34,113 nt of DNA from an uncultured Mycoplasmatota bacterium (GCA_946498975.1 CAMMQC010000016.1:1-34113); one strand, 5' to 3'. Positions 5,693 through 26,588 are shown, numbered from the stretch's first letter. Translations and numbers: made by a program. Notes: generated from the sequence alone by a model not told the origin.

Positions 5693-6520
5693 ATGGATTT
5701 AGAAGTAGAGTCTTTACAACCTATGTTTTATAATCAGATAATGAAAGCTCTTGATAAGGGCTTTTTGTCGCATGCATATTTAATAGAAACTAATAATAAT
5801 AGTTTAGATATTGTAAAGAAATATATTCTTTTTTTAGTAGAGAAAATATATGAAGACTCTTATAAAAATCATGATGTTACTATTTCTAAAGATAAGTTAT
5901 TTCATTTAATAGAGAATAATGAATTTCCTGATTATATAGAAGTTAATCCTATTAATAATCAAATAAAGAAAGAGCAGTTACTTTTTATTAGAGATGAGTT
6001 TTCTAGTAAATCCTTATATAATACAAGAAAAGTATATGTAGTGTTTGAATGTGATAAGATGAATGTTAGTGCTTCTAATACAATACTTAAGTTTCTTGAA
6101 GAACCAAGTGATGATGTAGTGGCTATTTTTGTTACTAGTAATCAGTATAATGTTTTAGATACTATTAGGTCTAGATGTCAGATTATGAGGCTTCAATATG
6201 AAGAAAGTAATGAGAATAGCTTTTCTGAAGAAGTGCTTTCTTTTATAGATGATATAAATAAAAGAAAAAGTGATGATTTATTACTTAAATTTAACTATTA
6301 TAGTAGTAATTTCTTTAATGATAAGAGTTCATCTACTGATTTTATTAGAGAATTACTTAAATATTATAAGAGCTTATTAAATAAAGAAGATAATGCTATT
6401 AATTTAGAGGAAGTAATTAATATTGTTTCTATATTAGATGAAAAGTTGAAGAAGTTGAAGTATAATGTTAATATGAAGTTGTGGATTGATGATTTATTAC
6501 TTTCTTTGATGGAGGTGTAG
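5693..6520 (+). CDS. holB: DNA polymerase III subunit delta'
   Basis: Clamp-loader subunit, 275 residues. It shows HAYLIE near residue 27, the central segment DKMNVSASNTILKFLEEP and an SRCQIMRL sensor-like motif, but no Walker A, as expected for the ATPase-inactive delta' subunit. A GTG at 5681 is in frame, but the ATG at 5693 has AGAGGTGG about eight bases upstream. It lies 15 bp after bofA and 1 bp before ricT. In B. subtilis tmk, yaaQ and yaaR come just before; they are absent here. Confidence 0.88.
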   Translation: MDLEVESLQPMFYNQIMKALDKGFLSHAYLIETNNNSLDIVKKYILFLVEKIYEDSYKNHDVTISKDKLFHLIENNEFPDYIEVNPINNQIKKEQLLFIRDEFSSKSLYNTRKVYVVFECDKMNVSASNTILKFLEEPSDDVVAIFVTSNQYNVLDTIRSRCQIMRLQYEESNENSFSEEVLSFIDDINKRKSDDLLLKFNYYSSNFFNDKSSSTDFIRELLKYYKSLLNKEDNAINLEEVINIVSILDEKLKKLKYNVNMKLWIDDLLLSLMEV

Positions 6521-14740: not shown

Positions 14741-15280
14741 ATGAAAACAACAGGTGTAGTAAGAAGAGTTGATGATTTGGGAAGAATAGTTATTCCTAAA
14801 GATATTAGAAAGTCTCTTAGAATTAGAGACGGTGAGACTTTAGAGTTTTTTGTAGATAAAGAGACTATTAGTTTGAAGAAATTTTCTACTAGTGAAGATT
14901 TGAGTGAAATGGCACAGTCTTTGCTTGATACTATTCATATGACTATAAGTAAAAGTATTTTTGTTACTGATAGAGATAAAGTAGTAGCAGGTACTGGTAA
15001 GTTAAAAAAAGAGTTTTATGGATTTAATATTTCTTCAAGATTAGAAGAATATTTATTTCAAACAGAGAGTTTAGTAAAAGGTACTAGTTTAGTAGAAGAG
15101 ATTGTAGATAGTAAAAATAAAGGGGTGGAGTATAAATATATTCTTAGTCCAATACTTTCTGATAGTGAGACTATTGGTTTAGTTTTTATGGTTATTGAAG
15201 ATAGTAAGAGTTTTACGGAAGAAGATGAACATATAATCCAGATAATTGCTAATTTCTTATCAAAATATCTTGAAGATTAA
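14741..15280 (+). CDS. spoVT: Stage V sporulation protein T
   Basis: Forespore transcription regulator, which in B. subtilis tunes sigma-G genes. The 179-residue product has an N-terminal AbrB/SpoVT swapped-hairpin DNA-binding domain (VRRVDDLGRIVIPKDIRKSLRI, broken here: VRRVDDLGRI then VIPKDIRKSLRI) and a C-terminal GAF-like sensing domain (about residues 55-178). The C-terminal domain distinguishes it from the ~95-residue AbrB and Abh. AAAGGAAGGAG precedes the ATG. An upstream forespore promoter was sought; TATA-rich stretches are present but none is convincing. Confidence 0.92.
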   Translation: MKTTGVVRRVDDLGRIVIPKDIRKSLRIRDGETLEFFVDKETISLKKFSTSEDLSEMAQSLLDTIHMTISKSIFVTDRDKVVAGTGKLKKEFYGFNISSRLEEYLFQTESLVKGTSLVEEIVDSKNKGVEYKYILSPILSDSETIGLVFMVIEDSKSFTEEDEHIIQIIANFLSKYLED

Positions 15281-18884: not shown

Positions 18885-18914
18885 TTGCTTTTATGATTGG
18901 AATTGTGCTATAGT
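18885..18914 (+). promoter_or_regulatory. Promoter of TasA-like gene 1
   Basis: TTGCTT (18885-18890), 18-bp spacer, extended TGC-TATAGT (18909-18914). The same layout recurs before the other four paralogues. Confidence 0.75.
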
Positions 18915-18942
18915 TATATTGTAGAAGGAGGTTAGACAAAAG

Positions 18943-19554
18943 ATGGGAGATAATAATAACAATTCAAAACAAGTGTTATTATCAGTGCTTGGTGTAGCAA
19001 TTTTAGTTGTTGCTGTTGTAGGTGTATCATTTGCAGCGTTTAGTTATAGTAAGACGGGTGAAAAAGTAAATACAATTACAACTGGTACTATTACAATGAG
19101 TTATAGTGAAACTACAAATGGTATTAATTTAACAAATGCACTTCCTATGAGTGATAGTGTAGGAATGAAACTAAGTGAACAAAATCAATATTTTGATTTT
19201 ACTGTAAATGCTAGTATTACTGGTAATACTACAATTAATTATGCAATTACTGCTACAAAAGAATTAGATAGCAATATTCCAGATGATGGTATCAAAGTAT
19301 ATTTAACTGATATGGATGGAGATGCTGATACTCAAATTGTAGCACCAACTAAAGTTTCTGAATTAGATGTAACTTCAAGTGATGTTTCAGGTGCACCAAA
19401 TGATCAGTATTTATTAAAATCTGATACATTCGCAGCAAATGGTTCACATGATTATCGTCTAAGAATGTGGGTAGCAGATGATTATACAGTTACTGGTGAA
19501 TCGCAAACATATAAACTTAGAGTAAATGTATATGGTGCAGCTGATGCACAATAG
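18943..19554 (+). CDS. TasA/camelysin-like secreted fibre subunit, paralogue 1
   Basis: 203 residues. A hydrophilic N-terminus is followed by a hydrophobic segment (~9-30) ending GVSFAAFSYSK, which matches the B. subtilis TasA signal end (GGTWAAFND) and the SipW-type cleavage site; cleavage is expected at SFA|AF. The mature part is an Ig-like beta-sandwich with family landmarks: TITTGTITMSY, INLTNALPMSD, YFDFTVNA, HDYRLRMWV and the terminal strand TYKLRVNVYGA. By analogy with TasA, the freed N-terminal strand would insert into the next subunit. GGAGG lies 11 bases upstream of the ATG. A SipW-type peptidase is encoded downstream. Homology to TasA/CalY is family-level; the true role may be matrix fibre, pilus-like structure or other surface filament. 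Confidence 0.85.
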   Translation: MGDNNNNSKQVLLSVLGVAILVVAVVGVSFAAFSYSKTGEKVNTITTGTITMSYSETTNGINLTNALPMSDSVGMKLSEQNQYFDFTVNASITGNTTINYAITATKELDSNIPDDGIKVYLTDMDGDADTQIVAPTKVSELDVTSSDVSGAPNDQYLLKSDTFAANGSHDYRLRMWVADDYTVTGESQTYKLRVNVYGAADAQ

Positions 19555-19572
19555 GAATTTTGTTTTTTAGAG

Positions 19573-19600
19573 AAGTGTCTAATCTCTGACACTTTTTCTT
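19573..19600 (+). terminator. Terminator after TasA-like gene 1
   Basis: AAGTGTC (19573-19579) pairs with GACACTT (19588-19594), then a T-rich run. Confidence 0.8.
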
Positions 19601-19645
19601 TTCTAAAAAAATGTCATTATTTTTGTTTCTTTTTTTAGAAAATGA

Positions 19646-19675
19646 TTGTGTAAATATTTTGTTTTGTGGTATAGT
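19646..19675 (+). promoter_or_regulatory. Promoter of TasA-like gene 2
   Basis: TTGTGT (19646-19651), 18-bp spacer, extended TGG-TATAGT (19670-19675). The 12 bases from the -10 onward closely match promoter 1. Confidence 0.75.
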
Positions 19676-19697
19676 TATATTATAAGGAGGATATGAA

Positions 19698-20309
19698 ATG
19701 AAAAATAATAATAATTCTAGACAAGTTTTGTTGTCAGTACTTGGAGTAGCAATTTTAGTAGTTGCTGTAGTAGGAGTATCATTTGCGGCATTTAGTTATA
19801 GTAAAGAAGGTACTAAAGTTAATACAATTACAACTGGTACTATTTCAATGAGCTATGATGAAGGTGATAATGCTATTAGTTTAACTAATGCTCTTCCAAT
19901 GACTGATGAAGTTGGTAAAGCTTTAGCGGATACAAGTCAATATTTTGATTTTACTGTAGGTGCTAATATTACAGGTACTACTACAATTAATTATGCAATT
20001 ACTGCTGCAAAGGAAGAAGAAAGCACTTTGCCTGATACTGCTGTTAAAGTATATTTAACTGATATGGATGCTACTGCAGATTCCGAAATATTACCTCCAT
20101 CTAAAGTTAGTGAATTAACTGCAACTACTGGTAGTGAACCATCTGGTACACCAACTGGTCAATTTATTCTTCATACTGATACATTTAGTGCAACAAGTTC
20201 ACATGATTATCGTTTAAGAATGTGGGTAGCTAATGATTATACGGTTACTGGTGATTCACAATCTTACAAGCTTAGAGTAAATGTATATGGTGCAGCAGCA
20301 GCTCAATAG
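19698..20309 (+). CDS. TasA/camelysin-like secreted fibre subunit, paralogue 2
   Basis: 203 residues, the same length as paralogue 1 and near-identical to it over the signal region and the first mature strand (residues ~6-50) and the C-terminal LRVNVYGAAAAQ. The middle of the sandwich differs, for instance DEGDNAISL for the SETTNGINL region and a longer SEPSGTPTGQF loop. Variation is thus concentrated in loops while the polymerisation strand is kept, consistent with co-assembling or alternative subunits. A strong Shine-Dalgarno (AAGGAGG) precedes the ATG. It has its own promoter and terminator. The SipW-type cleavage motif SFA|AF is conserved. Confidence 0.85.
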   Translation: MKNNNNSRQVLLSVLGVAILVVAVVGVSFAAFSYSKEGTKVNTITTGTISMSYDEGDNAISLTNALPMTDEVGKALADTSQYFDFTVGANITGTTTINYAITAAKEEESTLPDTAVKVYLTDMDATADSEILPPSKVSELTATTGSEPSGTPTGQFILHTDTFSATSSHDYRLRMWVANDYTVTGDSQSYKLRVNVYGAAAAQ

Positions 20310-20322
20310 AAGTTTAATTTAG

Positions 20323-20350
20323 AAAGTGTCTAATTTTGGCGCTTTTTCTT
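20323..20350 (+). terminator. Terminator after TasA-like gene 2
   Basis: AAAGTGTC (20323-20330) pairs with GGCGCTTT (20338-20345) using two G-T pairs, followed by T residues. The left arm is shared with terminator 1, pointing to duplication of the whole cassette. Confidence 0.75.
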
Positions 20351-20362
20351 TAGCAAAAAATC

Positions 20363-20392
20363 TTGATATAATGATTATTTTTATGTTATATT
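20363..20392 (+). promoter_or_regulatory. Promoter of TasA-like gene 3
   Basis: TTGATA (20363-20368), 18-bp spacer, extended TGT-TATATT (20387-20392). Confidence 0.75.
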
Positions 20393-20417
20393 CTATATTA
20401 TAGAAGGAGGTTAAAAA

Positions 20418-21035
20418 GTGAAAGACAATAATAATTCTAAACAAGTATTATTATCAGTATTAGGTGTTGCAATTTTAGTTGTTGCTGTTGTAGGAGTATC
20501 ATTTGCAGCGTTTAGTTATAGTAAGACAGGTGAAAAAGTAAATACAATTACTACAGGTACTATTACTATGAGCTATAGTGAAGATACTAATGGTATTAAT
20601 CTTAGCGATGCTTTGCCTATGTCTGATGATCAAGGAAAGGCTTTATCTGGTTCAAATAATGTCTTTGATTTTACAGTAACTGCTACTATTAACGGCTCTG
20701 GTAATACTACAATTAATTATGATGTAACAGCGACTAAAGAGAGTGGTAGTACTCTTGATGATAGTGCTGTAAAAGTATATTTGACTAGTATAGATAATAG
20801 TGCAGATACGCAGGTTTTAGCTCCAACTAAAGTTAGTGCTTTAACAAAAACTGGTAGTTCTGAAGCAAGTGGTGCTCCTAATGGTCAATATAAACTTACA
20901 ACTGGTACTTTTACATCTACTACTACACGTAAATATCGTTTAAGGATGTGGGTTGCAGAAGATTATTCTAGTTTAAGTACTTCAGGTACATATAAATTAA
21001 GAGTAAATGTATATGGTGCAGCTGCCGCTCAATAA
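20418..21035 (+). CDS. TasA/camelysin-like secreted fibre subunit, paralogue 3
   Basis: 205 residues, starting at GTG with AGAAGGAGG seven bases upstream. The signal region and first mature strand are essentially the same as in paralogue 1, including SKTGEKVNTITTGTITMSYSE. Differences lie in the central region (FDFTVTATINGSGNTTINYDV) and near RKYRLRMWVAEDYSSLSTSGTYKLRVNVYGA. High similarity to 1 and 2 at both protein and DNA level indicates these three arose by the most recent duplications in the array. It has its own promoter and terminator. Confidence 0.85.
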   Translation: MKDNNNSKQVLLSVLGVAILVVAVVGVSFAAFSYSKTGEKVNTITTGTITMSYSEDTNGINLSDALPMSDDQGKALSGSNNVFDFTVTATINGSGNTTINYDVTATKESGSTLDDSAVKVYLTSIDNSADTQVLAPTKVSALTKTGSSEASGAPNGQYKLTTGTFTSTTTRKYRLRMWVAEDYSSLSTSGTYKLRVNVYGAAAAQ

Positions 21036-21056
21036 AAGTGTATAACACTTTTTTCT
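21034..21056 (+). terminator. Terminator after TasA-like gene 3
   Basis: AAAAGTGT (21034-21041) pairs with ACACTTTT (21045-21052) around a 3-nt loop, followed by T residues; overlaps the stop codon. Confidence 0.8.
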
Positions 21057-21060
21057 TTTC

Positions 21061-21089
21061 TTGCTAAACTTTTATATATGTGATATATT
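21061..21089 (+). promoter_or_regulatory. Promoter of TasA-like gene 4
   Basis: TTGCTA (21061-21066), 17-bp spacer, extended TGA-TATATT (21084-21089). Confidence 0.72.
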
Positions 21090-21110
21090 TTTATTGTAGG
21101 AGGCTTGTTT

Positions 21111-21731
21111 ATGGAAAATAAAAATATTAATAAAGATTCTAACTCTAAGTCAGTAGTTTTAATTATTATTTGCGTTATTGTTTTAATTCTAGCTGTTATT
21201 GGAGTAAGTTATGCTGCTGTTTTTTATTCTAAAACTGGGGAAAAAGTTAATATAGTTACAACAGGTACTATAACGATGAGTTATAGTGAAAATACTAATG
21301 GTATTAATTTAACTGATGCATATCCTATGACAGATGATATTGGTAGAAGTTTAAATGATGTAAATCAATACTTCGATTTTACTGTTAATGCAACTATTGG
21401 TGGAAATACTATAATTGATTATGTTGTTACTGCTACTAAGGAAGCAGATAGTACTTTACCAGATAATGCTGTAAAAGTATATTTAACTAGTTTAAATAGT
21501 GGGAATGAATCTCAAGTATTAGAACCTACTAAAATTTCAGAGTTGCAGATTACTTCTCAGAATGCAGCAGGAGCACCGGACGGTCAGTTTGTTTTACTTA
21601 ATAGTACTTTTAGTCAAACTGAAGCACGTAATTATCGTTTAAGAATGTGGGTTGCTAGTGATTATGTTCTTCCTGATTTTAGTCAAACTTATAAATTACG
21701 TGTAAATGTTTATGGTAGTGTAGTTGAATAG
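21111..21731 (+). CDS. TasA/camelysin-like secreted fibre subunit, paralogue 4 (divergent)
   Basis: 206 residues from the ATG at 21111, which has AGGAGG seven bases upstream (a TTG at 21105 is in frame but too close to it). The hydrophobic stretch differs from copies 1-3 (VVLIIICVIVLILAVIGVSYAAV) and there is an extra residue before YSKTGEKVN. The mature domain keeps TITMSYSE, INLTDAYPMTDD, YFDFTVNA, YRLRMWVASDY and KLRVNVYG, but ends SVVE rather than the Ala-rich tail of copies 1-3. It is probably an older duplicate with a distinct position or role in the filament. Own promoter and terminator. Confidence 0.82.
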   Translation: MENKNINKDSNSKSVVLIIICVIVLILAVIGVSYAAVFYSKTGEKVNIVTTGTITMSYSENTNGINLTDAYPMTDDIGRSLNDVNQYFDFTVNATIGGNTIIDYVVTATKEADSTLPDNAVKVYLTSLNSGNESQVLEPTKISELQITSQNAAGAPDGQFVLLNSTFSQTEARNYRLRMWVASDYVLPDFSQTYKLRVNVYGSVVE

Positions 21732-21739
21732 AATAATAT

Positions 21740-21765
21740 AGTACAGTTTGTCTGTACTTTTTTCT
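21740..21765 (+). terminator. Terminator after TasA-like gene 4
   Basis: AGTACAG (21740-21746) pairs with CTGTACT (21752-21758), followed by T residues. Confidence 0.82.
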
Positions 21766-21793
21766 TTACCTAAAAAAGTTAGTGTGATACAAT
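21765..21793 (+). promoter_or_regulatory. Promoter of TasA-like gene 5
   Basis: TTTACC (21765-21770), 17-bp spacer, extended TGA-TACAAT (21788-21793). Confidence 0.7.
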
Positions 21794-21820
21794 TATTTTA
21801 GAATACGAGGGAGTGTAATT

Positions 21821-22453
21821 ATGGATAATCAAAATTATAATGATGAAGTTATAAAAAAAGAATCAAACAATAAAATATTTATTATTATTATTTGTTTACT
21901 TATTTTTATTATTATGGTAATTGGTGTTTCAGTTGCAACTTTTACTTATACAAAGGAAAATAAAAGTATTAATACGATAAGTACAGGTAATATTTATTTG
22001 AATTATACAGAAGATACTAATGGAATTAATATTACAAATGCTTATCCAATAGCTGATGAAGTAGGAAAAACTTTAACTAATGAAGATCAATATTTTGATT
22101 TTACAGTTGAAGCTTCGCTAGAAGGTGATGTTGCTGCTAAATATGAAGTGTCAGCAGAGAAAGAAACTTCTTCTACATTAGATAATGATGAAGTTAAGTT
22201 ATACTTAGAAAAGAAAGTTAATAATTCATATCAAGAAGTAATGGCTCCTAAGCATTTTACTCCTCTTAAAGAGAGTACAGATTTAGGAACAATGGCAGGT
22301 ACAATGTTATTAGATAGTGGTACTATTTCTGAAAGTTCAACTGTTAATTATCGTTTAAGAATGTGGGTGGATGCTAATACTATTTTAGATAATTTAGAAA
22401 AAAGTTTTGGTGTTAGAGTTTCTATTAAAGCAAAAGTAGATTTATCAGAATAA
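21821..22453 (+). CDS. TasA/camelysin-like secreted subunit, paralogue 5 (most divergent)
   Basis: 210 residues, the most divergent of the five. A charged N-terminus (NDEVIKKESNNK) is followed by a long hydrophobic run and the signal end GVSVATFTYTK, where SipW-type cleavage would fall at SVA|TF. Retained landmarks are NTISTGNIYLNY, INITNAYPIADEVG, YFDFTVEA, YRLRMWVD and FGVRVSIKAKV; the middle is more charged (EKETSSTLDNDEVKLYLEKKVN). No clear terminator follows, so it may be partly cotranscribed with the signal-peptidase operon. Its divergence and place next to that operon suggest a minor subunit such as an initiator, tip or anchor adaptor. Confidence 0.8.
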   Translation: MDNQNYNDEVIKKESNNKIFIIIICLLIFIIMVIGVSVATFTYTKENKSINTISTGNIYLNYTEDTNGINITNAYPIADEVGKTLTNEDQYFDFTVEASLEGDVAAKYEVSAEKETSSTLDNDEVKLYLEKKVNNSYQEVMAPKHFTPLKESTDLGTMAGTMLLDSGTISESSTVNYRLRMWVDANTILDNLEKSFGVRVSIKAKVDLSE

Positions 22454-22496: not shown

Positions 22497-22528
22497 ATAC
22501 TTTAGAATAATAAGTGGGTGATAACTCG

Positions 22529-23206
22529 ATGAAAAAAAATAAAGATTGGTTAACTACGCTTAAGAAGATATTACATTTTATTACGACAGTTCTAATGTAT
22601 TCTATTTGCTTGATAATGATAATAGTTTTCTTAGTGTTTGTAGTTAATTTTATTGATAAGCAATATAATTTAAAATCTGGCAAGAACAAAAAAGATCTTT
22701 TTTCAGCATACACTATAGTTAGTCCTTCTATGGTTCCAGCTATTAATGTTTTAGATGTTGTTGTTACTATGAGGGTAAACAATCCTGAAGATTTGAAAAA
22801 AGGGGATATAATAACATTTAATTCTACTGATTATAGATATTCTGGGGTTCTTGTTACGCATAGAATTGTTAACATAGAAAAAACAAGTAGTGGAGAATAT
22901 TTATTTACTACAAAAGGAGATAATAATAATACTCAAGATTCTTCAAGAATTAGTTTTGATGAAATATATGGTAGAGTTTTATTTAGAATTCCTAAAATAG
23001 GTTATATTCAATATTATCTTAGTTCGGTTTTAGGATGGGTTGCTATTATTATAGTTCCTGCAGTTATGATTATAGGTTATGATATATATAAATTAATAAA
23101 GACTTTAAAATCTAAAGATGATAACGCTAAGAAGATTGATAATAAAAAAGAAAATACTAAAAATAAAAGGATTAAGAAGGAAAAAGAAGGAAGGTTTAAA
23201 AAATGA
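22529..23206 (+). CDS. sipW: SipW-type signal peptidase I
   Basis: 225-residue ER/archaeal-type signal peptidase. The catalytic Ser is in SPSMVP (Ser67) and the usual bacterial Lys is replaced by His111 in VTHRIV, the Ser/His dyad that defines SipW. Asp131 in TKGDNNNTQD completes the signature. Membrane segments lie at about residues 16-42 and 165-192, followed by a very basic ~35-residue cytoplasmic tail. The ATG at 22529 has GGGTGAT six bases upstream; the GTG at 22514 lacks a site. SipW enzymes process only TasA/CalY-type precursors, so the five upstream genes are its natural substrates. It overlaps the next gene by 4 bases. Confidence 0.92.
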   Translation: MKKNKDWLTTLKKILHFITTVLMYSICLIMIIVFLVFVVNFIDKQYNLKSGKNKKDLFSAYTIVSPSMVPAINVLDVVVTMRVNNPEDLKKGDIITFNSTDYRYSGVLVTHRIVNIEKTSSGEYLFTTKGDNNNTQDSSRISFDEIYGRVLFRIPKIGYIQYYLSSVLGWVAIIIVPAVMIIGYDIYKLIKTLKSKDDNAKKIDNKKENTKNKRIKKEKEGRFKK

Positions 23207-23748
23207 AAAAAATAGTTTTGTTACTTTTGGCAGGAGTTGCTTTATTTGCTTTTATTTTTACAATTTCAATATTATGGTATAGATTCTTTTATAATGATTC
23301 AGATGCTAGTAATAGTGTTAGTTCTGTTAATGTTCAGCTTGGTGATAACAATGTAATAGATGAAAGTGGTTTGATACCTTTGGATGATGAGACTGCTAAG
23401 ACTATTACTCCTTATGAATTTAGGGTTGAGAATAATAGTACTAATGATACTACTTATAATGTCTTATTAGAAGATACTGTTATAAGTGATGATGCAAATT
23501 ATACTAATAAAGAGTTGCTTTCAAGAAATCAGTTAAGATATCAATTATCTTTAAATGGTAATGTTATTAAAGTAGGTAATTTGAATGAAATTGAAAATAA
23601 TATTTTAGATACTAGGAATATAGCTTCTTCACAAGTTAATAATTATCAGTTGCGTATTTATGTGGGAGAGTCTTTCCAAAATACTGATTGGCAGAATAAA
23701 TATTATCATTTTAATATTAATGTGCAAATGGAGGATGAAAATGTATGA
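23203..23748 (+). CDS. Membrane-anchored divergent TasA-like protein (putative anchor subunit)
   Basis: 181 residues, one N-terminal membrane segment (about 4-28) and an exported beta-rich domain. It shows the same layout as the upstream fibre subunits at low identity: VNVQLGD, then GLIPLDDETAKTI, YEFRVENN, NYQLRIYVGES and a terminal HFNINVQ strand. Unlike them the hydrophobic segment ends in ILWYRFFY with no Ala-x-Ala-like cleavage site, so it probably stays in the membrane. I infer an anchor or nucleating subunit, a job TapA does for TasA, though no sequence kinship to TapA is visible. The ATGA overlap with sipW and GAAGG ahead of the start show translational coupling. Confidence 0.7.
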   Translation: MKKIVLLLLAGVALFAFIFTISILWYRFFYNDSDASNSVSSVNVQLGDNNVIDESGLIPLDDETAKTITPYEFRVENNSTNDTTYNVLLEDTVISDDANYTNKELLSRNQLRYQLSLNGNVIKVGNLNEIENNILDTRNIASSQVNNYQLRIYVGESFQNTDWQNKYYHFNINVQMEDENV

Positions 23749-24434
23749 AAAAAGTTCTTTTAGAATATGCTAATGTTTTTGCTTATACTATTACTGGTTT
23801 AATTTTTGGCCTTGCTTTCTTTTTGCTTTTTATTAACTTCTATCATATGCAGGAGCTGGCTGAAACTGTTGATGTTAGTTCTTATAATGATACTAATAAG
23901 GCAACTGTAGAAAGTAAAATTGAAACTATAAGAAATAATATAAGTGTTTATAATCAATCTACTTATACTGGTTCTCTTAATATATATGGGCTTAATACTG
24001 TTCAGCTAAAATTACAGGATTGTCTTGAAATATTAGAAAGTGAAGATATGATGAAATATTTTGAGTTAGATGAGATAGGTATTAAGGATAGTTATAATTT
24101 TACTTTGGATTTTAAAAATAAAATATTAAATGACTGTTTAGTTATGCAGGTTAAATCTATGTTTAATACTGATACTGTGTCAATGTTACCTAATTTTAAT
24201 GTTATAAAGCCTTATGTAGAACTTAATTTAGACACTTTGCTTGATTCTACTAATTATGTTCAAAGTAATATTGAAAATTCTGATCATTATTATTTCAGTA
24301 CAGAAACTAATAAAGCTAATTTCTTTAATTTAGTTGATGATAGTTATTCAGATGTTATGAATAGTTATCAGAATTCTCTTGATTTACTTGTAGAAGTTTC
24401 TAATTGGTATAGAAATGTAGTATTAGGAGGTTAG
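23745..24434 (+). CDS. Unrecognised single-pass membrane protein of the fibre operon
   Basis: 229 residues, family not recognised. One N-terminal membrane segment (about 10-32) precedes ~195 residues that should face outward. This part looks largely helical and acidic and carries two Cys (in LQDCLEIL and NDCLVMQV) about 38 residues apart, which could form a disulphide. It overlaps the preceding gene by 4 bases (ATGA) and is followed after 3 bp by the next, so all four genes are one translational unit. Tight coupling to a SipW peptidase and an anchor-like protein suggests a role in export, assembly or length control of the filament. Confidence 0.7.
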   Translation: MKKVLLEYANVFAYTITGLIFGLAFFLLFINFYHMQELAETVDVSSYNDTNKATVESKIETIRNNISVYNQSTYTGSLNIYGLNTVQLKLQDCLEILESEDMMKYFELDEIGIKDSYNFTLDFKNKILNDCLVMQVKSMFNTDTVSMLPNFNVIKPYVELNLDTLLDSTNYVQSNIENSDHYYFSTETNKANFFNLVDDSYSDVMNSYQNSLDLLVEVSNWYRNVVLGG

Positions 24435-24437
24435 ATA

Positions 24438-24893
24438 ATGAAGAAAATTTTTAATTGGTTATTTTATGGTCTTAAATTTCTTCTTTTAATTGCAGCTTTG
24501 GGTTTGACTTTGTTTGTTTTAATTAGAATGAATGTAAGACTTGAAAAAAATATGATGTCAGTTTTACCAGAATTAATTCCTTTTGCACTTTTATTAATTT
24601 TGTTTATAGTTAATATGATTTTTAAACAAAAAGGTGTTAATGAAAACATTTTTTATAATTTAACTTGTTGTTTGGTTTTAGCAACAATTGTATGTGTAAC
24701 ATTAAGGGCTGTTTTGGATACTAATATGGTTCTTAATGAAAAATATGGGTATGGTGTTGATTTTAACTTTTTTGATAATTTTGTTGCTTATATAAATATC
24801 ATGTTATATGGTTTATCAATTGCTAATATTTTGTTTATGTTTAGGGAAAAAGAAGATAAAGTTCAAAAGTCTAAGAAATTAAAGAAAGCTTAG
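24438..24893 (+). CDS. Unrecognised four-helix integral membrane protein of the fibre operon
   Basis: 151 residues with about four membrane segments (roughly 9-29, 43-62, 74-93 and 116-135) and a basic cytoplasmic tail (KVQKSKKLKKA). No enzyme motif seen and no family recognised. AGGAGG lies eight bases before the ATG. It is the last gene of the operon; a strong terminator overlaps its stop codon. It could partner with the preceding single-pass protein as an assembly platform; that is inference from context. Confidence 0.7.
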   Translation: MKKIFNWLFYGLKFLLLIAALGLTLFVLIRMNVRLEKNMMSVLPELIPFALLLILFIVNMIFKQKGVNENIFYNLTCCLVLATIVCVTLRAVLDTNMVLNEKYGYGVDFNFFDNFVAYINIMLYGLSIANILFMFREKEDKVQKSKKLKKA

Positions 24894-25792: not shown

Positions 25793-25808
25793 TTAATGGG
25801 TGAATTTT

Positions 25809-26588
25809 ATGTTTAAAATAGGTGATGTTGTAACTAGGAATTCTTATAACAACGATATAATATTTACAATTATTGATATTAAAGATGATATAGCTTATTT
25901 AAAGGGAATAGATGTTAGACTTTATGCTGATAGTAGTTTAGATGATTTAGAAAAAGCTTTAGTAAATTATGATAATAATAAAGACCGTAATGATGCTTTA
26001 AAGATTAAAGATATGTTAAATTTAGATAGAAGTGAATACTTTTATTTACCAGGGAAGATTTTACATATTGATGGAGATAAAGATTACTTGAAAAGATGTA
26101 TAGATTTTTATAAAGATATGCATTTAGAAGCTTATGGTGTTAATTTAGATGAAGAAAGATTTGAAAGAGATATTACTTCTTGTTTAAATGAGTATAAACC
26201 AGATATTTTAGTTATTACAGGACATGATTCTTTTAAGAAAAATAAAGATAAGAATAATTTGTCTAGTTATCAGAATTCAAATAATTTTGTTAAGGCAACT
26301 GTTAAAGCTAGAGAATATGAAAGAAATCAAGATAAACTTATTATAATAGCAGGAGCGTGTCAGTCTTTTTATGAGGATTTAATTAAAGCGGGTGCTAACT
26401 TTGCTTCTAGTCCTAAGAGGATTAATATTCATGCACTGGACCCTGCTATAATTGCAAGTGCTGTAGCATTATCTCCTAAGAATAAAGAAATTGATTTAAT
26501 AAGTCTTTTAGATAAAACACATTATGGTAGTGATGGTATGGGTGGTATTATTACTAATGGTGTTATGTATGTGGGGTATCCTAGATGA
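25809..26588 (+). CDS. yabG: Sporulation-specific cysteine protease YabG
   Basis: Protease that trims spore coat proteins in B. subtilis (and pre-pro-SleC and CspBA in Clostridioides). The 259-residue protein has the N-terminal SH3-like segment (KIGDVVTRNSYNNDIIF), LPGKILHIDGD, the VITGHDSF stretch and the conserved AGACQSFYEDLIKAGANFASSP block with the likely catalytic Cys, followed by NIHALDP and a C-terminal GGIITNGVMYVGYP. The ATG at 25809 has GGGTGA six bases upstream; the GTG at 25800 overlaps it. It overlaps veg by 4 bases. Confidence 0.93.
   Translation: MFKIGDVVTRNSYNNDIIFTIIDIKDDIAYLKGIDVRLYADSSLDDLEKALVNYDNNKDRNDALKIKDMLNLDRSEYFYLPGKILHIDGDKDYLKRCIDFYKDMHLEAYGVNLDEERFERDITSCLNEYKPDILVITGHDSFKKNKDKNNLSSYQNSNNFVKATVKAREYERNQDKLIIIAGACQSFYEDLIKAGANFASSPKRINIHALDPAIIASAVALSPKNKEIDLISLLDKTHYGSDGMGGIITNGVMYVGYPR

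Follow-up and report, generated by a model that had tools for sequence, protein, structure and literature searches.

The closest described counterparts of the five-gene TasA-like array that we analysed in a 34,113-nucleotide stretch of DNA from an uncultured Mycoplasmatota bacterium (GCA_946498975.1 CAMMQC010000016.1:1-34113; hereafter the window) are found in Bacillus. The tapA-sipW-tasA locus of B. subtilis places a SipW-type signal peptidase beside one small beta-sandwich subunit, TasA, whose donor strand comprises residues 28-38 (PMC9674648). In B. cereus, the TasA/CapP/CalY locus holds two paralogous subunits at a single sipW locus; heterofilaments of TasA and CalY have been demonstrated, and lectin-like fusions are not mentioned in the available part of that report (PMC13082335). 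More distant counterparts are the archaeal bundling pilus AbpA (7ueg), with a single donor-strand beta-sandwich subunit, and the type V pili of Bacteroides. For the latter, a review reports tip pilins, i.e., pilins linked to a ligand-binding head, that are diversified by diversity-generating retroelements (DGRs); they have a different pilin fold and are assembled as lipoproteins at the outer membrane (PMC12632263). DUF6273, in turn, is a known retroelement variable region with a C-type lectin fold and adenine-specific variation, whose published targets are phage proteins (PMC11792537, PMC10743442).

The window resembles the B. subtilis locus in that a SipW-type peptidase is encoded beside small beta-sandwich subunits whose N-terminal strand is similar, in its best structural match and in the presence of an accessory protein. 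It differs in the number of subunits (five instead of one), in the gene order (five subunits, sipW, uncleaved TasA-like protein), in the separate promoters, in two membrane proteins without a family and in the missing Pfam M73 match. Compared with B. cereus, there are 3-7 subunits in this group of loci instead of two. We consider it probable, though far from certain, that the array belongs to a multi-subunit donor-strand filament of the TasA type which is able to carry heads hypermutated by DGRs.

The initial annotation had placed five tandem paralogues of 203-210 residues from position 18885 onwards. Open reading frame (ORF) calls and alignment bear this out: five ORFs of 203-210 amino acids occupy 18943-22453 on the + strand, the annotated start lying 58 bases 5' of the first one. 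These are copy 1 (18943-19554, 203 amino acids, predicted mature start F33 at 19039), copy 2 (19698-20309, 203), copy 3 (20418-21035, 205), copy 4 (21105-21731, 208 when counted from TTG, the likely start being ATG 21111) and copy 5 (21821-22453, 210). In full-length alignment, copies 2, 3, 4 and 5 are 72, 71, 57 and 35 % identical to copy 1, i.e., copies 1-3 are close while 4 and then 5 diverge stepwise, as had been described. The signal segment of every copy closes with VGVSFAA directly followed by FSYSKTG, or a near variant, and a predicted SipW-substrate-like cut at this junction would leave mature copies of about 170 residues. The annotated pattern of a common signal end, first mature strand and C-terminal strand with variable loops was likewise recovered. 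That is, the mean entropy over 67 sequences is 1.74 for loops and 1.11 for strands, with residues 13-24 among the best conserved (0.79). The array is not a chance arrangement, since related genomes have it at the same locus with 3-7 copies. This range results from the between-genome comparison of copy number that the annotation had suggested: among 17 complete arrays, three have 3 copies, nine have 4, three (including the window) have 5, and one each has 6 and 7. The related loci come from uncultured Bacilli, labelled largely as gut metagenomes; one is Candidatus Onthousia faecipullorum.

For the mature copy 1 we obtained an AlphaFold2 model with a predicted local distance difference test (pLDDT) score of 81 and a predicted template modelling (pTM) score of 0.80, residues 1-12 being below pLDDT 50. 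Both Foldseek (E 6e-4 at probability 1.00) and VIA (136 residues, 3.8 Å, runner-up Z 6.1) rank the TasA fibre 8aur first; the VIA Z of 7.3 is, however, within the range reached by unrelated sandwiches and, being below 8, not decisive on its own. The fold search also returned AbpA (a weak match, Z 5.2) as well as the donor-strand pilins FimG and PapG. VIA pairs model residues 15-171 with TasA 41-235 and leaves model residues 1-14, mostly below pLDDT 50, unaligned; since the TasA donor strand precedes the aligned region, the unaligned N-terminus of the model would correspond to this strand. The SipW-type signal end, at which cleavage is predicted, is accompanied by a nearby gene for a SipW-type (endoplasmic reticulum-type) signal peptidase (22514-23206, + strand) that matches TIGR02228 above its cut-off (2.8e-27) and NF046067 below its cut-off (4.9e-28); its SPSM, THRI and GDN motifs (serine, histidine, GDN) are conserved. 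Given fold match, sipW locus and signal architecture, we take the copies as TasA-type subunits by fold, and the model suggests, with modest confidence, a TasA-like beta-sandwich for the array copies.

Several results weigh against this assignment and its extension to a filament. The Pfam family Peptidase_M73 (PF12389) matched the B. subtilis control but neither the five copies nor anything else in the genome that contains the window, and comparing the array with the sequences of solved structures gave no match. Because the Pfam camelysin test failed, the copies are not filed as camelysins; of the annotated TasA/camelysin-like identity, the TasA-like fold next to a SipW-type peptidase thus stands, while a camelysin identity by sequence does not. 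We attribute the weak NCBIfam and Pfam matches, FliL and tetraspanin among them, to a chance resemblance of the hydrophobic signal segment of the copies. Furthermore, copies 3 and 4 modelled as a single read-through chain reached a pTM of 0.40, with the N-terminus of copy 4 disordered and outside copy 3; since this model was built from a 22-row alignment and has a signal helix and an artificial linker between the domains, the missing contact weighs little either way. Finally, none of the proteins has been seen in a filament.

TasA-like domains are not confined to the array. A profile of the five copies hits 11 further places in the same genome, mostly within ORFs of 470-660 amino acids, and in about ten dispersed proteins outside the window, lectin-like domains are joined to a TasA-like domain at the N-terminus. 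Beyond this domain, the fusions consist of DUF6273 (four proteins), frequently with two repeats, or of a second type that matches no family; the variable domain of the type-1 fusions had no family match. In one fusion (AAFSYSKTGGKVNSITTGSITM), the signal end and first strand are nearly identical to those of the array, and its domain sits within the array tree. Placed between copy 5 and copies 1-4, the TasA domains of the type-1 retroelement targets belong to the array clade. Two loci (L150, L151) join nearly identical subunit domains to different heads. As a side observation, one ORF (L073:4393-5346) combines a TasA-like N-terminus with a band-7/HflK-like C-terminus, which could represent a chimera, a fusion in decay or a misassembly.

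The genome contains two DGRs, each with a reverse transcriptase and an Avd-like gene that adjoin a TasA-domain fusion. Reverse transcriptases of DGRs have the motif (I/V/L)GxxxSQ; the two enzymes, at loci L077 and L069, match PF00078 above cut-off and read IGNVTSQ and IGNYTSQ. The accessory protein of L077 matches NF033474 (Avd, 3.5e-6) and bAvd (3.3e-7), both under the curated cut-offs, while that of L069 is Avd-like solely through its similarity to the L077 protein. On contig C9, the template of L077 (6600-6697) and the variable repeat of its type-1 target (6319-6416) have 23 mismatches, each at a template adenine, and two remote fusions (contigs C19 and C15) match the same template with 17/18 and 17/19 mismatches at A. 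Pooled over its three targets in this genome, 57 of 108 adenines of this first template (TR1) but 3 of 186 other positions differ (p 1e-26). The second element (TR2, contig C33) is less clean, with 13/19 and 13/16 mismatches at A. Within the window, no template matches were found. That one template serves all TasA fusions of a genome can be ruled out, as most fusions in three further genomes (G009, G015, G028) were unmatched by the tested template. A related reverse transcriptase is present in 32 of 35 genomes of the genus, and 21 cassettes from 18 of its genomes, representing several reverse transcriptase lineages, have a TasA-domain target beside the DGR; some of the reverse transcriptase genes are broken.

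Some DGR loci show peculiarities of their own. Two of them (L113, L114; G012:C17, G009:C20) have a reverse transcriptase in two pieces: between a first one of 260 amino acids and the second lies a group II intron-like reverse transcriptase ORF (439-440 amino acids), as if an intron had inserted. A further locus (L115, G005:C51) shows several near-repeats with adenine-biased differences, perhaps a DGR with several templates or targets. A fragment at a contig start (G000:C11:176-505) corresponds to the final third of the DGR reverse transcriptase at 96 % identity and may be a second, perhaps split, copy.

We propose a link between heads and shaft because of the kinship of their domains, the common signal end and their co-occurrence within one genus. 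On the other hand, the array clade leaves out many fusion domains, those of the second retroelement among them. Moreover, in the wider family, genomes with a TasA-like match show no enrichment of the DGR reverse transcriptase (odds ratio 0.94, p 0.81), a weak test that misses divergent TasA domains. The genome also encodes two additional SipW-type peptidases, such that the fusions need not use the one of the array locus. All three observations would fit heads and shaft being unrelated, i.e., fusions that are individually anchored or secreted and have nothing in common with the filament but an old domain for export and folding. We regard this as rather unlikely, given that the type-1 DGR target groups within the array clade and has retained the array's signal end and first strand with hardly a change. 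In addition, sequence reading shows no obvious membrane span or LPxTG motif at the C-terminus of the fusions of this genome, which would therefore be lost after cleavage unless partnered.

To follow the history of the copies, we used a tree that took in 95 copies from related loci. The last copy (copy 5 in the window), beside sipW, forms a single clade across all species (support 100/100, branch 1.28), i.e., an ancient separate lineage that was retained at this place. Most of the remaining copies cluster with the same-position copy of close relatives, with gains and losses present. Given this position-wise grouping, the copies are old ordered subunits, and the tree rules out their recent amplification. 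The ratio of nonsynonymous to synonymous divergence (dN/dS) is 0.08-0.70 across all orthologous copy pairs tested, i.e., positive selection on the copies was not seen by this measure.

The copies nevertheless differ in their individual histories. Against one relative (L003), copy 3 shows a synonymous divergence (dS) of 0.05 and the other copies 0.38-0.67; copy 3 also contains a tract that is 100 % identical to other species. Against another (L013), copy 5 has a dS of 0.07 beside 0.43-0.49 for the others. The L013 array has an equal number of copies, so that the comparison is in register: copies 1-4 are mostly 81-92 % identical, while the flanks (23.7-27 kb) are mostly 98-100 % identical. For L001 and L003, whose arrays hold an extra copy, the BLAST identity profile is in part shifted over copies 1-2, and copy-wise dS was used instead. 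The array is thus an island of divergence and recombination within near-identical flanks, and the identical tracts inside diverged copies show exchange between species.

Such an island, with single copies carrying tracts identical to other species (dS 0.03-0.07 beside 0.3-0.67) and with a varying copy number, is what a reservoir for antigenic variation could look like, in which recombination swaps copies and alleles as an escape from host immunity or phages. We hold this to be doubtful as the purpose of the array: dN/dS stays below 1 in every orthologous copy, the copies are still recognisable as orthologues, and an invertible promoter or silent cassette was not noticed, although no dedicated search was made. 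It is compatible with the filament explanation and not exclusive of it. The annotated notion of surface variants selected for diversity therefore survives in part, i.e., as a mosaic island but not as a recent or positively selected expansion. The strongest source of diversity lies outside the window, in the DGR-diversified lectin-like proteins that bear the same kind of subunit domain.

Each copy is preceded by an extended -10 motif (TGnTAyAnT) on the + strand, namely at 18906-18914 (TGCTATAGT), 19667-19675 (TGGTATAGT), 20384-20392 (TGTTATATT), 21081-21089 (TGATATATT) and 21785-21793 (TGATACAAT) for copies 1 to 5. Terminator-like hairpins on the same strand follow copy 1 (19570-19597, -11.2 kcal/mol), copy 2 (20322-20346, -8.7 kcal/mol) and copy 4 (21740-21758, from the hairpin scan). 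Behind copy 3, a hairpin AAAAGTGT-ATA-ACACTTTT with a subsequent T-rich stretch (21034-21052) was spotted by eye but not by the automatic filter. Across the paralogues, the motif occurs in 85 of 91 copy upstreams vs 3.6 % of shuffled sequences, and a hairpin with T run in 54/73 spacers between copies vs 6/40 shuffled spacers, where the size of the excess is approximate since the controls are mononucleotide shuffles. Following these statistics, nearly every subunit gene looks like a transcription unit of its own.

Separate promoters and terminators, together with the long maintenance of the copies as distinct orthologues, would also be expected if each subunit formed its own homopolymer under different conditions, i.e., if the promoters switched between alternative fibres and no mixed filament existed. 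This appears improbable to us, because the first strands are among the best conserved parts of all copies, which would permit mixing, and because co-assembly occurs between B. cereus paralogues that are 61 % identical (PMC13082335). The heteropolymeric filament proposed by the initial annotation is hence plausible, with long-lived orthologous subunits, separate promoters and the TasA/CalY precedent in its favour; the predicted chain of copies 3 and 4 lacks the donor-strand contact.

Downstream of the peptidase, at 23203-23748 (+ strand), lies a sixth TasA-like protein of the locus (181 amino acids), which is more distant than the array copies. It matches the array profile at 8.5e-5, its relatives at 2e-5 to 4e-8, and an A-x-A cleavage end in its N-terminal segment is absent from 24/24 sequences. 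It is a candidate for a membrane-tethered initiator or base of the filament. Next follow, both on the + strand and without family match, a 229-residue protein with one N-terminal membrane span (23745-24434) and a 151-residue membrane protein (24438-24893), each present in 23/23 loci. The order sipW, TasA-like protein, 229- and 151-residue proteins is kept in all 23 related loci, and where visible, the cassette is flanked by tatD / a 3D-domain gene on one side and by ksgA / yabG / veg on the other. In the window, a SpoVT-like (14741-15280) and a YabG-like gene (25800-26588), named by sequence reading, suggest retained sporulation functions in this 1.5 Mb genome. Elsewhere, L143 (G000:C39:1-9000) encodes two further SipW-type peptidases, one within a protein of 676 amino acids, next to an ATPase-like gene and a protein of 409 residues that has a SipW-type signal end; this may be a second such secretion system.

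Taken as a mechanism, the shaft of a secreted TasA-type filament would be built from several array-encoded subunits, each exported and then trimmed by the adjacent SipW-type peptidase. The freed N-terminal strand of one subunit could be donated to the next and thereby drive polymerisation, with the uncleaved TasA-like protein as candidate membrane-bound starter and the two membrane proteins as candidate helpers. Separate transcription units might allow for a tunable subunit mix. The same-type domain of the fusions may act as a plug that joins hypervariable C-type-lectin-like, presumably ligand-binding heads to the filament, some of which would be rewritten by the two DGRs. In its most far-reaching form, the proposal is a Gram-positive donor-strand filament whose parts are interchangeable, constant array subunits forming the shaft and lectin-headed subunits from across the genome plugging in, some of them continuously rewritten by DGRs; we put this at slightly below even chances.

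In the open literature, we found no paper that combines a DGR with TasA or SipW, the main Bacteroides study lying outside the scope of this search. The fusions place DUF6273, described from phage proteins, on a TasA-like subunit domain encoded on bacterial contigs, and the pilin-head link reported for Bacteroides would recur with a TasA-type subunit in a Bacilli lineage. If true, TasA-type matrix filaments and the diversification of proteins by retroelements would come together in a gut lineage that is widespread and uncultured, giving the DGR-diversified pili of Bacteroides a Gram-positive counterpart. Heads carried on such a shaft offer a testable reason for the multiplication of TasA-like genes in gut Bacilli and would provide a natural scaffold to display evolvable binding domains.

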